Source: Candidatus Halobonum tyrrellensis G22 (GTDB lineage Archaea > Halobacteriota > Halobacteria > Halobacteriales > Haloferacaceae). Taken from it: a stretch of 38,121 nucleotides of DNA. Under the pieces are notes generated by a model. It made no database searches and was not told the DNA's origin. It saw only the letters and a list, made by a program, of their open reading frames with translations. The stretch is taken from assembly GCF_000495475.1 (NCBI RefSeq), contig NZ_ASGZ01000033.1:1-38121 (forward strand), given 5' to 3'. Shown here in pieces: positions 23,497 to 38,121 of the stretch (positions are counted from its first letter, which is position 1; the number at the start of each line of letters is the position of its first letter). Position numbers and translations under genes: made by a program.

Positions 23497-23838
23497 ATGA
23501 GCGAGTTGGACGCCGAGGTCCAGACCGCGAGCGACTACGGCGGCGAGGGGCCGCCCGTCGAGGAGAAGCCGTACAAGATAATCTTCGAGGCGAACGCCTG
23601 CTTCGGCGCGGGCAAGTGCGCCGAGGTGGCGCACAACTGGGAGATGGACATCGCCTCCGGGATGGCGAAGCCGAAGTCGTACTACTTCGCCGAGGAGGAG
23701 TTGGCGGAGAACGTCCGCGCCGCCGAGGTGTGTCCCGCCAAGAAGGGCGACGGCTGCATCCACGTCGTCGACCGGCGGACCGACGAGGAACTCGCGCCCG
23801 ACCCGCACGGCGACGGGACGCTGAGCGTGGACTGGTAA
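23497..23838 (+). CDS. Single-cluster ferredoxin with insertion-restored 3' end
   Basis: A 113-residue low-potential electron carrier. Cysteines are C35 and C41 (CFGAGKC, a C-x5-C spacing that lacks the middle Cys of a classic 4Fe-4S site), C79 in VCPAKKG, and C87. This suggests a [3Fe-4S] or atypical [4Fe-4S] cluster. The N-terminal 25 residues are acidic. The last 17 codons plus TA of the stop lie in a 54-bp sequence repeated at 25599-25652, so the present 3' end was recreated by an insertion; the stop is now TAA where the orphan copy has TAG. The gene is preserved in frame and presumably functional. Confidence 0.9.
   Translation: MSELDAEVQTASDYGGEGPPVEEKPYKIIFEANACFGAGKCAEVAHNWEMDIASGMAKPKSYYFAEEELAENVRAAEVCPAKKGDGCIHVVDRRTDEELAPDPHGDGTLSVDW
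23784..23837 (+). repeat. Left copy of 54-bp direct repeat (attL-like)
   Basis: This copy spans the third base of codon 96 to the second base of the stop codon of the ferredoxin gene. It is identical over 54 bp to 25599-25652. Sequences diverge immediately on the right (ACTCGC here, GGCCGG at the other copy) and after one base on the left. Confidence 0.92.
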
Positions 23839-24318
23839 CTCGCAGAGGGACCGATAGCAGTCGGCCGTTCCACGCCGGCACCCCCAACGTGAAGCCGAGA
23901 ATCGATCATCTCACCGAGGAGATGGTGGTGCTCCGCTTCAGTGGCTACTGGAGAGACGAGAAGCGAGAGGCTCCGAATAGATGGCGAACCCACCCACGTA
24001 CCTACCATCCCACTTCCGGCACAACCCCGAGACACGCCGATTGATCTCCTCTGTAGTGTTAATTTCGAGGAGTCGTTGGAGCGTCTCGTCAATCGTTTCG
24101 CGCTGATCCAGTCGTACGTGACTGCTGATACCTTGAGGGCATTTCTGCCACCATTAAATCATCTATCAGTATCTCTTGTGGTTATATGTATTTATTATAA
24201 AATAGTTTAGTGTACGCAGGATATAAACCGAGCTGTTCGGATTGGGAGTTCGGACGAGAGTTCACCAACACAGGCTGACGCATCCCGAGTGGATCAAATA
24301 ATTGCGCAGGTGGTAATC
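23839..24318. other. AT-richer non-coding part of the insertion
   Basis: No convincing gene was found in these 480 bases. The right half (about 24130-24320) is markedly AT-rich (for example GTATTTATTATAAAATAG), unlike the rest of the window. Short open frames exist on both strands. On the minus strand a 65-codon stretch (about 24166 down to 23949) containing RETIDETLQRLLEINTTEEI has coding-like composition, but it has no start codon and is enclosed by stops. It may be a decayed gene, possibly what is left of the element's own recombination or regulatory gene. Confidence 0.45.
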
Positions 24319-24323
24319 TTATA
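24319..24323 (+). promoter_or_regulatory. TATA box of the putative toxin-antitoxin pair
   Basis: TCTTATACTCGC is centred about 26 nt before ATG 24347, so the regulator gene should be transcribed without a leader. Confidence 0.55.
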
Positions 24324-24346
24324 CTCGCAGGACGTATAGGGGCAGT

Positions 24347-24874
24347 ATGGGCGAGGACGACTACCCTCGCGGCGTCGAGGAGTGGATCGAGAACACCACC
24401 GCGTTAGATCGTGTCAAAGGGATCGCCGCTGGACGACAACAGCCCATCTCGGTCGCGGAGGTGGCCGAAGAGGCGTTCGTCTCGAAGAACACCGCTCGGA
24501 GCCACCTCGAACGGTTGACGGAGTACAACATCCTTCGAGCAGAGACACGAGGAGGGACGACCGTCTACTCGGCGAACCCGCGCTACACCCGGTTCAGCGC
24601 AGTCGAGGAGTTGTTGGACGAACACGACCGGGCGGGACTGATGGAGCTCCGGTCGGAGATCCAAGAGCGAATCGAGGGGTGGCGCGAGGAGTTCGACGTC
24701 GAGGAGCGAGAGGAACTGTGTGAAGCGGCACGGAAGACGGAGTTCTCCGAAGAGACGAGGGGTCTCATCAACCCGTACCGGCAATGGGGGATGGAAGAAC
24801 ATCGACTCTCCCTCGTGAACGAGGCCCTTCGGTCGTACGAGGAGACGAATCCGACGGAGCCTGCCTCCGCGTAG
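24347..24874 (+). CDS. DUF7342-like winged-helix regulator, probable antitoxin
   Basis: A 175-residue protein. It opens WIENTTALDRVKGIAAG and has a winged-helix segment at about residues 30-75 (VAEVAEEAFVSKNTARSHLE, then TEYNILRAETRGGTTVYSAN). A helical C-terminal part follows, with FSAVEELLDEHDRAGLMELR and GWREEFDVEEREEL. This layout matches a haloarchaeal family I know as DUF7342, usually followed by a small partner gene as here. Only 1 nt separates its TAG from the next ATG, so translation is probably coupled. Autoregulation of the pair is the natural inference. Third-position GC is lower than in the flanking chromosome, in line with transfer on the insertion. Confidence 0.82.
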   Translation: MGEDDYPRGVEEWIENTTALDRVKGIAAGRQQPISVAEVAEEAFVSKNTARSHLERLTEYNILRAETRGGTTVYSANPRYTRFSAVEELLDEHDRAGLMELRSEIQERIEGWREEFDVEEREELCEAARKTEFSEETRGLINPYRQWGMEEHRLSLVNEALRSYEETNPTEPASA

Positions 24875-24875
24875 C

Positions 24876-25295
24876 ATGGCCGGGGGATACGACTCAGGCA
24901 AGCAGTCGCACGACGACCTTCGGAAGATTCGGCAGGGGCTGGAGCGACATCCGATGGTGGCGAGTGCGGAGGGAATCCCGCCGGGAGGGTACGAGCAGGT
25001 TCGCGCCGAACTGGATTCGAACTACATCGAAGGCGGTTCCGGTTCCAGCAGTCTGACCGTCTCGTGGTTCAGCGGAGTCGCGCCGGGGGATCGGCCCGAG
25101 TTCTCGTTTCACTACGTCGATGACACCCAGGAGGTGGGACTCCATCACCACCCGAACGAGCACGTCGATGGGTGGGGGCACGTCCAGAAGAGACATGCCG
25201 ACGACACCAGCTACCGCTACGTACCGTACACCTTCGGGAGTTTGGAGCCGGAGCGTGTGGTCTGGGAGGTACTCTCGTTCCTGAATGACCAGTAA
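24876..25295 (+). CDS. TumE-like partner protein, candidate toxin
   Basis: A 139-residue protein placed directly after the winged-helix gene. The core reads LTVSWFSGVAPGDRPEFSFH, then GLHHHPNEHVDGWGHVQKRH, then YTFGSLEPERVVWEVLSFL. The His-rich centre with a following Trp-Gly-His recalls the TumE/DUF6516 group of toxins, for which HTH antitoxins are typical. I rest the call on this pairing and on memory of similar haloarchaeal gene pairs, not on a demonstrated activity. Clustered histidines could bind a metal or catalyse RNA cleavage. It could instead be an ordinary effector of the regulator. It ends 304 nt before the right repeat. Confidence 0.65.
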   Translation: MAGGYDSGKQSHDDLRKIRQGLERHPMVASAEGIPPGGYEQVRAELDSNYIEGGSGSSSLTVSWFSGVAPGDRPEFSFHYVDDTQEVGLHHHPNEHVDGWGHVQKRHADDTSYRYVPYTFGSLEPERVVWEVLSFLNDQ

Positions 25296-25598
25296 CGTCC
25301 GTAGGAGCTGATTCTGACGCGGCGCGCACACGCGAGGTGGCGTACTGGCTCACGAGGCAGAGCTAACCGAGAGTATTCCGAATGGAGGCTTACAGATGGA
25401 TCCTTTCCGATGAAGAGAATTCACTGTACGTAGAGACTGCTGCGACAGAAGCGTGGGAAAACGTTGCCCACCGAATCTGTCACTCTTCTTCAATGACAAT
25501 CGAGTATCCTCCCTCCCGCAAGTGGGGTTAATCCGCTCCCGGTGGTGGTTTGTATGTCCGTCACCCGGAGAGAGGGTCAGAGAGCAGAACGGCACCGG
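25296..25598. other. Non-coding right part of the insertion
   Basis: These 303 bases follow the candidate toxin gene and reach the right 54-bp repeat. Composition is less GC-rich than the chromosome. No codon-biased frame, hairpin or terminal repeat was seen. A short frame ending in the right repeat (25453-25653) reads the last 17 ferredoxin residues after unrelated sequence and is not considered a gene. Confidence 0.5.
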
Positions 25599-25652
25599 CG
25601 AGGAACTCGCGCCCGACCCGCACGGCGACGGGACGCTGAGCGTGGACTGGTA
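25599..25652 (+). repeat. Right copy of 54-bp direct repeat (attR-like, orphan ferredoxin tail)
   Basis: Identical to 23784-23837. It codes for EELAPDPHGDGTLSVDW and then TAG, without the rest of the ferredoxin gene. It leads within 60 nt into tRNA-Leu, so this copy appears to sit in the original downstream context. Confidence 0.92.
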
Positions 25653-36262: not shown

Positions 36263-36589
36263 TCAGTTGTACTCCCGCCACCGGTACCCGCACTCGGTGC
36301 ACTTGAAGAAGCGCGTCGGCGGTTCGTCCGCGGCGCCGGTCTGTTTGATCGTGTACCAGGCGACGCCGTGACCACACTTCTCGCAGTGCACGTCGGACGA
36401 GGTGGGCTTCCCCTCGAAGTTGGCGCCCTCCTCGGTCTCTATCACGTCGTCGTCGGTCTGCGCCTCCGTCGAGACGAACTGCGCGGCGCGGTCCTCGTCG
36501 CGGTCGTCGGTCGCGCCACAGGAGGTACACACCATCGCGCCGTCCTCGGAGACCATCATCGACCCGCAGTCGTCGCAGAACTGGACCAT
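36263..36589 (-). CDS. tfs: Transcription elongation factor TFS
   Basis: A 108-residue archaeal TFS, the TFIIS-like factor that stimulates transcript cleavage by backtracked RNA polymerase. The N-terminal zinc ribbon has C5/C8 (CDDCG) and C21/C24 (CTSCG). The C-terminal ribbon has HCEKCGHG and KCTECGYRW. The catalytic acidic pair is in TGAADEPPTRFF. The start MVQFCDDCG carries a Val that I do not recall in the usual MQFC start, and its first codons include a 17-bp sequence repeated at 37887-37903. This suggests the present 5' end was rebuilt by an insertion. No clear TATA box lies at the right distance upstream. Confidence 0.95.
   Translation of the reverse strand: MVQFCDDCGSMMVSEDGAMVCTSCGATDDRDEDRAAQFVSTEAQTDDDVIETEEGANFEGKPTSSDVHCEKCGHGVAWYTIKQTGAADEPPTRFFKCTECGYRWREYN
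36567..36583 (-). repeat. 17-bp direct repeat, copy within tfs start
   Basis: On the coding strand CAGTTCTGCGACGACTG covers codons 3-8 of tfs. It is identical to 37887-37903. Flanking sequences differ at once on both sides. Confidence 0.8.
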
Positions 36590-36738
36590 GGGGTATCAAC
36601 GACCGTCGACGGAGTCAAGTCTGTCCATCCGACCGGTCCACCGGACTCGAACCCCGGTCGGAACCGACATGCCGAACGGTCTTCGACCACCGGTCGGCAC
36701 GAATCGCTACGACGAATAAAGGCCGACGGGGAAGACAG

Positions 36739-37527
36739 TTACATCTCTCCGCCACTGGCGCCCGTGTCACCGAAATCGCCGACGCCGACACCGGTATCAC
36801 ACGCCGCGACGGCGTCCGCCGCGGTAGAGTCCGAGACCGTCGCGCAGGTCGCCGGACTCCCCATCCCCCCGGCACTCCCCGACGCTGCTAGCGTCCCCCT
36901 CGGATACGGGGCCGAGACCATCTCGTCGACGTCGATGTCCGCCACCCCCTCGTCGTTCAACTCCTCGATGTCCACGACGAGTTCGTCGCTCCGCGCCGCG
37001 AACTCGCCGCTGAACTCGGCGTCCGGGAAGGCGTACACCATCGGCACCTGTTCCGGACGCACTCGCCCCCGTTCGACCGCATCGGCCAGGTCGTCACGCA
37101 CCCTGTCCAACTCGTCTAGTACCGCCGCACACCGGTCGGTTGAAACGCCCACCGTCTCCGTCCACGTGATCAGGCCGAACAGCAGGCTCTTCTGCTCCTC
37201 CCGTCGTCGGTAGAACCCCCTGTGACGCAGGTCCGCCTCGAAGTCGTACTCGTAGACCGCGTTCACCATGCGTTCACCGTCGTCGATCCCGACGATCGCG
37301 TCCCGGATCTCGACCTCGTAGGGACGGAGGTCCGCATCCTCGTCGAGGTGGGCGTCCGCGGTCGGACGGAACCCCTCGCCGTCGCCCTCGGGCCTAATCA
37401 GGCCCCGCATGGACATGCTGATGAGTGCCGCTTGCAGCGACGACTTCCGGGTCCACGACTGGTCCCCCTCCTCCGAGAGGATCCAGAGGAGTTCGACCGG
37501 ACGGAGGTCGTCGAGTTCGTGTGTCAC
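36739..37527 (-). CDS. Unrecognised protein with winged-helix-like N-terminus and Gly-rich tail
   Basis: A 262-residue protein. The start, LRPVELLWILSEEGDQSW, then SLQAALISMSMRGLIRPEG, looks like a winged-helix domain without obvious DNA-binding residues. It recalls proteins such as GPP34 or TIGR04222, where a similar fold mediates protein contact. The middle is acidic and helical (RCAAVLDELDRVRDDLADAV). The last 55 residues are Gly/Ala/Ser/Asp-rich with two Cys and repeated GVGVGDFGDTG-like units, resembling low-complexity tails of secreted or self-assembling proteins. GTG 37527 overlaps the stop of the preceding small frame (GTGA). I cannot assign a function. Confidence 0.75.
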   Translation of the reverse strand: MTHELDDLRPVELLWILSEEGDQSWTRKSSLQAALISMSMRGLIRPEGDGEGFRPTADAHLDEDADLRPYEVEIRDAIVGIDDGERMVNAVYEYDFEADLRHRGFYRRREEQKSLLFGLITWTETVGVSTDRCAAVLDELDRVRDDLADAVERGRVRPEQVPMVYAFPDAEFSGEFAARSDELVVDIEELNDEGVADIDVDEMVSAPYPRGTLAASGSAGGMGSPATCATVSDSTAADAVAACDTGVGVGDFGDTGASGGEM

Positions 37528-37817
37528 GGGTTACTAGCCGAATGGTAGCTCAGAAGTGATAAATCAGACGACGAACCCGTCTCCGAACCGGACTCCGGGG
37601 CGACGACTGCTCCGACCGTCTCTTCGGCGTACACAACAGGGCGAACTGGGTGTTCGGTGACGCCCGCCTCGTCACCCCTCCTCGACGGGAAACGGGACGC
37701 TCCGAACCCGAAGTCGCTCCCGGTCCCCGTCCACATCCCGTCCCGATCCCTCGACCAGTCCGCCGTCGTTGCACCCTGCACGTTCGCGGCCCACTCCGGA
37801 GCAAACGCACCGCCCAC
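37524..37817 (-). CDS. Possible small acidic protein upstream in a GTGA overlap
   Basis: A frame of about 97 codons from GTG 37815-37817, ending in TGA at 37524-37526, which overlaps the GTG of the next gene. The protein contains AFAPEWAANVQGATTADW and DGMWTGTGSDFGFGASRF and ends SYHSASNP. No homology is recognised and the start is uncertain. Codon use is fair but includes AGG and TTA. The exact GTGA junction is the main support; it may instead be decayed DNA. Confidence 0.35.
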   Translation of the reverse strand: MGGAFAPEWAANVQGATTADWSRDRDGMWTGTGSDFGFGASRFPSRRGDEAGVTEHPVRPVVYAEETVGAVVAPESGSETGSSSDLSLLSYHSASNP

Positions 37818-37873
37818 CCCGTCACCGCCGTCGGAGTCACCGGGAGAACGGCCGATACGCCCGCTAGAAGCTA

Positions 37874-37906
37874 CTACTCGGCGAACCAGTCGTCGCAGAA
37901 CTGCAT
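37874..37906 (-). pseudogene. Aborted tfs start (10 codons)
   Basis: On the coding strand ATG begins MQFCDDWFAE and then two stops (TAG TAG). The first six codons match the TFS N-terminus, with MQFC as in typical homologues. A TATA-like GGGGTTTAC (complement of about 37931-37939) sits 25-33 nt upstream. This is the residue of a tfs gene start interrupted after codon 6. Confidence 0.6.
37887..37903 (-). repeat. 17-bp direct repeat, orphan copy
   Basis: Identical to 36567-36583. It sits directly after an ATG that is preceded by a TATA-like element, in the position expected for an intact tfs start. Confidence 0.8.
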
Positions 37907-37957: not shown

Positions 37958-38113
37958 TCAGTCCGGCCCGCCCCGCGCGGCCACGGGACAGCCGCGAACC
38001 CGGACGTCGTCGCCGTCGAGCAGTTCCACGATGGCGGTTCCCTCGTGGGTGCAAGCCATCTCCGGCGGGGCGGCGAGGTGGGGACACTGCTGGCAGTACT
38101 CGCGTTTGTTCAC
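37958..38113 (-). CDS. Small four-cysteine, zinc-ribbon-like protein
   Basis: About 51 residues from GTG 38113, reading VNKREYCQQCPHLAAPPEM, then ACTHEGT and RVRGCPVAARGG before TGA. The four cysteines (CQQC, one in ACTH, one in GCPV) are suited to bind one zinc or iron. The frame stays open to the window edge, so the true start may be upstream. It resembles short haloarchaeal zinc-binding proteins of unknown role. The stop lies about 50 nt before the aborted tfs start. Confidence 0.72.
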   Translation of the reverse strand: MNKREYCQQCPHLAAPPEMACTHEGTAIVELLDGDDVRVRGCPVAARGGPD

Positions 38114-38121
38114 GACCCGCT

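Follow-up and report, generated by a model that had tools for sequence, protein, structure and literature searches.

Why do the first codons of tfs, the gene for transcript cleavage factor TFS, occur a second time upstream of the gene in the salt-loving archaeon Candidatus Halobonum tyrrellensis G22? The window, that is the whole stretch of DNA that was analysed (38,121 nucleotides), is the entire contig C33 of a 3.68 Mb genome. The original prediction was that an insertion had split the tfs start and supplied a new start codon, and perhaps a new promoter. Judged against the tfs loci of relatives, an insertion just after the tfs start codon is almost certain. The case appears to be an archaeal insertion that captured and re-started a conserved transcription factor gene, documented against many empty sites. 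The features used below are as follows.

36263..36589, minus strand: tfs, encoding transcript cleavage factor TFS (MVQFCDDCGS...), its start re-made; Pfam Zn_ribbon_TFIIS and Zn_ribbon_RPB9
36567..36583, minus strand: 17-bp repeat, right-hand copy (tfs codons 3-8), putative attR core; exact-copy search of the genome
36584..36589, minus strand: ATG-GTC from the insert, predicted new start codon plus an extra valine; absent from 98/101 relatives
36584..37886, minus strand: insert, 1,303 bp, GC 66.1%; empty site in relatives
36614..36620, minus strand: ACTTGAC, weak candidate TATA-like element of the new start; distance fits, score not above background
36739..37527, minus strand: ORF262, orphan protein-coding gene (262 aa) of the insert; codon-position GC
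37874..37906, minus strand: orphan start of ancestral tfs, MQFCDDWFAE-stop; sequence reading
37887..37903, minus strand: left copy of the 17-bp repeat, putative attL core; exact-copy search of the genome
37931..37937, minus strand: TATA-like element of the ancestral tfs start; position as in relatives
37958..38113, minus strand: YCxxC small-protein gene, N-terminal part lost at the contig end; precedes tfs in relatives

The 17-bp repeat and the orphan start

The repeat, CAGTTCTGCGACGACTG (17 bp), has exactly 2 exact copies in the 3.68 Mb searched, at 36567-36583 and 37887-37903 on the minus strand. They are spaced 1,320 bp apart, start to start, and the upstream copy lies behind an orphan ATG as had been predicted. 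The length of the repeat is by itself weak evidence, since 72 recurring 17-mers were observed in this GC-rich window vs 1.7 under a first-order null. The decisive evidence for an insertion is instead location, as read from the start codon, the reading frame and the gene order. The 17-mer was also encountered in ten viral contigs, in no case adjoining a tfs start, and these were discarded.

The orphan reads ATG CAG TTC TGC GAC GAC TGG TTC GCC GAG TAG, which is 10 codons, MQFCDDWFAE, and a stop. No similarity between the orphan and tfs was detected past the 17 bp. GGGTTTACC is located around -31 to -25 of the orphan ATG, where relatives have CTTTTG or TTTGTG. Using a promoter matrix built from 95 relatives, the orphan start scored 2.0, a value reached by 1.9% of window positions. 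The original description of this ATG was thereby confirmed, both for the stop after 10 codons and for a TATA-like element spaced as for a leaderless start. It is the orphan ATG, not tfs, that has the end of the small YCxxC gene as its neighbor, 51 bp away. Contig C33 stops inside this gene (window 38114-38121), and homologues of the gene extend further at the N-terminus.

Comparison with the tfs loci of relatives

tfs loci were taken from whole-genome searches and a named genome collection, which generated 101 readable loci, with at least two genomes counted twice. The start is ATG-CAR (MQFC) in 98/101 loci. The YCxxC gene ends 26-148 bp upstream of tfs in 45 of the relatives' loci, and tfs in relatives is preceded by a T-rich TATA-like element around -31 to -25, the leaderless distance. 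Taken together, the MQFC start, the YCxxC neighbor and the position of the TATA-like element in relatives identify the orphan as the ancestral tfs start and 36584-37886 as the insertion. When the flanks are joined minus the insert and one repeat, the result is MQFCDDCGSMMV and tfs becomes a standard MQFC gene. The 17-bp direct repeat at both insert borders matches one empty-site sequence that is single-copy in relatives. Comparison of occupied with empty sites thus gives the insertion, its borders, the repeat and the restored frame, and the predicted splitting of the original tfs start is borne out by relatives that start MQFC directly behind the YCxxC gene.

Two contrary outcomes had been named beforehand, relatives with MVQFC and the same upstream DNA, and an orphan derived from a decayed paralogue. 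Neither was seen. The 1.3-kb segment was found in none of the relatives searched, and no genome searched combines an MVQFC start with the upstream DNA present here. The only other tfs-like gene found in the genome is intact, 40% identical, and located on a different contig.

The interval between the YCxxC gene and tfs has also been invaded in three Halobellus species (L068, L069, L074), by a gene of ~390 codons for a membrane protein, and an alcohol dehydrogenase gene lies upstream of tfs in G352 (L037), with no tfs duplication. The 1.3-kb gaps in Halobellus and the alcohol dehydrogenase gene were considered as parallel insertions and rejected, because they are ordinary genes and tfs is not duplicated. 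Other elements at the tfs site were found in none of the genomes searched.

The new start of tfs

Pfam recognizes both zinc ribbons in the tfs product, which is of the TFIIS/RPB9 type and is 85% identical to TFS of Halobaculum gomorrense. The gene opens ATG GTC CAG TTC. The ATG-GTC at the insert end is in frame with tfs and an in-frame TGA lies three codons upstream, which leaves this ATG as the only ATG start that retains the first CxxC zinc knuckle. The insert therefore supplies tfs with a new in-frame start codon, presumably used in vivo, and hence the gene would survive. Starts of the form ATG-GTC-CAG or ATG-GTG-CAA (MVQFC) occur without a duplication at three other loci, L037, L038 and L089, so one additional residue is tolerated.

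The gene of a core RNA polymerase factor now lies under foreign upstream DNA. tfs had been said to lack an obvious TATA box, and this is fair, with a matrix score of -0.41 at the restored start, although ACTTGAC is found at the right distance and resembles the Halobellus element ACTTGTG. That the insert may have brought a new promoter, as suggested, is plausible: the candidate ACTTGAC has a fitting distance, and its score is reached by 6% of window positions.

The insert and ORF262

With a GC content of 66.1% (host, 72.1%), the insert falls below every one of 5,000 equally long stretches sampled from the host, and this low GC marks it as foreign. Only short patches of homologous DNA were found in 170 family genomes. 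There is no second copy of the insert in the genome, where matches were limited to a patch of 53 bp and a short one that looks like chance, and no free or circular form was seen. Terminal inverted repeats were absent from the first and last 45 bp. A search of the insert for a recombinase or integrase gave no match, and ORF262 is the sole convincing gene.

The codon-position GC of ORF262, 0.71/0.46/0.84, is similar to that of other genes here. Searches of Pfam, PHROGs, NCBIfam, PADLOC and PDB, of 391 class genomes and of genome, viral, plasmid and phage collections turned up no convincing relative. The weak hit that looked most similar by eye (G202, L047) was a wrong-frame match within other genes and was rejected. 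The predicted structure has a pLDDT of 36. The 53-bp patch, on contig C61 (near 54646-54698; L035 about 1463-1565), is 89% identical to the first codons of ORF262. It lies near tRNA-Ser in a 34-codon open frame that starts like ORF262 (MSGPLDDLRPVELLRILSEE), and this frame is perhaps what remains of a further copy of the ORF262 gene family that has been lost.

Origin of the insert

We favor site-specific recombination at a 17-bp attachment site as the probable origin of the insert. The starting point would be a circular, perhaps once larger, mobile DNA that underwent Campbell-type integration into codons 2-7 of ancestral tfs (MQFCDDC). Recombination would take place between a 17-bp attB in tfs and an identical 17-bp attP on the element, whose attP flank would bear ATG-GTC in frame with the core. 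Integration would cut the original promoter, ATG and core off from tfs, so that upstream they head a defunct stub of 10 codons, and tfs itself would begin MVQFC, possibly with a promoter that is new as well. As the insert has no integrase, the 1.3 kb with one orphan gene would be either a deletion remnant or non-autonomous cargo moved in trans. We infer the involvement of a (tyrosine) recombinase and the loss or lending of its integrase. The reconstructed attB has a perfect 5-bp dyad, GCAGT...ACTGC, around a 9-bp center, and the reconstructed attP has another, CCAGT...ACTGG, also with a 9-bp center but with different outer bases. These dyads suggest recombinase arms, but they are short and came to notice in hindsight, and 3.4% of window 17-mers match equally in the outer five positions. 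It is rather doubtful that haloarchaea have recombinase-free cassettes, each with a core borrowed from a housekeeping gene start and a built-in start codon, that are moved in trans by the integrases of other elements, and that the tfs insert is one of them.

An exact direct repeat, small size and the lack of an integrase would also fit a non-autonomous transposon that made a staggered cut and a 17-bp target duplication, with the in-frame ATG a matter of luck kept by selection on tfs. We regard this as unlikely, given that the insert has no terminal inverted repeats and that neither this genome nor the 170 family genomes contain another copy of it; 17 bp is also generally long for a transposon duplication. 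Casposon target duplications are about 14-15 bp. Foreign DNA could also have been trapped where tfs had suffered a staggered double-strand break, the repeat then arising as the ends were filled in. This route needs no recombinase and agrees with an insert that has no relatives. It requires, however, a 17-nt stagger and a fragment that ended by chance in an in-frame ATG, and the dyad symmetry would be accidental, which makes it somewhat less probable than transposition.

DNA imported from a haloarchaeon whose own tfs begins MVQFC might instead have recombined homologously, and such starts are known in L037, L038 and L089. This seems improbable, as it leaves the left 17-bp copy unexplained, and a homologue of the insert DNA was absent from the family genomes searched and one of ORF262 from the class search. 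The least credible reading has no insertion at all, only a chance repeat or a decayed tfs paralogue. 17-mers do recur in a GC-rich window, but here the similarity stops at exactly 17 bp and the orphan occupies the ancestral tfs position with promoter and neighbor, and we discarded both variants on the gene order in relatives.

Other insertions in the same genome

A 24-kb element of 55% GC is located in the 3' end of secY on contig C21 (about 21814-45868; L199, L200). It has two integrase genes and is flanked by 23-bp repeats, ATGATGCGCACCATGTTCGGCGG, and the final codon and the stop of secY are rebuilt by it, so short-core integration into housekeeping genes occurs in this lineage. It is like the tfs insert in its short repeat (23 bp) and in its target, a housekeeping gene whose end the element rebuilds, and unlike it in the use of the 3' end, in its tyrosine integrase genes and in its unrelated DNA.

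The window itself contains another insert (23838-25593; 23779-25652 with its 59-bp repeats; 1.76 kb, 58% GC), which lies upstream of tRNA-Leu and has a ferredoxin-like gene as its target, at the 3' end. Its cargo is a DUF7342 winged-helix regulator and a small 139-aa partner gene, which together look like a toxin-antitoxin pair. Relatives of the small gene had no comparable gene-end duplication in flanking repeats within 1.5 kb, and the few long repeat hits near them were cut-off loci or a separate longer duplication. Both inserts lack a recombinase, as originally noted. The mechanism proposed to be common to the two was not supported, because the repeats are 17 vs 59 bp, the targets are 5' vs 3' ends, the cargo differs and there is no significant sequence similarity between the inserts.

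Comparison with known systems

Integration at the 5' end of a gene is known from dusA-specific integrative elements, for example IMEVchUSA3, which use a short core, provide a new N-terminus and promoter, and restore the frame (PMC8409611). ICE SXT in prfC is cited in a passage of that paper as another element that rebuilds a 5' end. The tfs insert resembles this type: its target is likewise the 5' end of a conserved gene, entered at a short core, and it too supplies an in-frame start. The dusA-type elements are bacterial, 23-37 kb, and carry an integrase and an excision factor, and their expression was shown with lacZ (PMC8409611), whereas the tfs insert is archaeal, 1.3 kb, has no integrase and supplies only ATG-GTC, the promoter being a candidate.

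Among archaea, integrated elements of thaumarchaea have att repeats with a median of 17 bp, and 13 bp in NitEve-E2 (PMC6563490), so the tfs repeat is of the usual archaeal length. The tfs insert is like the NitEve-E2 type in its archaeal host, short att repeats, rebuilt frame and proof by occupied vs empty sites. It differs in its position at the 5' end, as all 14 protein-gene integrations in that survey were 3'-distal (PMC6563490); our search covered the open-access literature, and earlier archaeal reports may exist. The pTN3-like archaeal elements, which sit in the 5' half of tRNA genes, share with the tfs insert the archaeal host, the 5' side and a target then expressed from the element's side, but their target is a tRNA gene and they encode their integrase (PMC8371274). 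With the tfs insert, the recorded mobile DNA of haloarchaea gains a small cargo that has an orphan gene and no recombinase. The phenomenon itself is known; this archaeal example of it is small, clean and somewhat unusual, with an uncommon location and the customary integrase missing.
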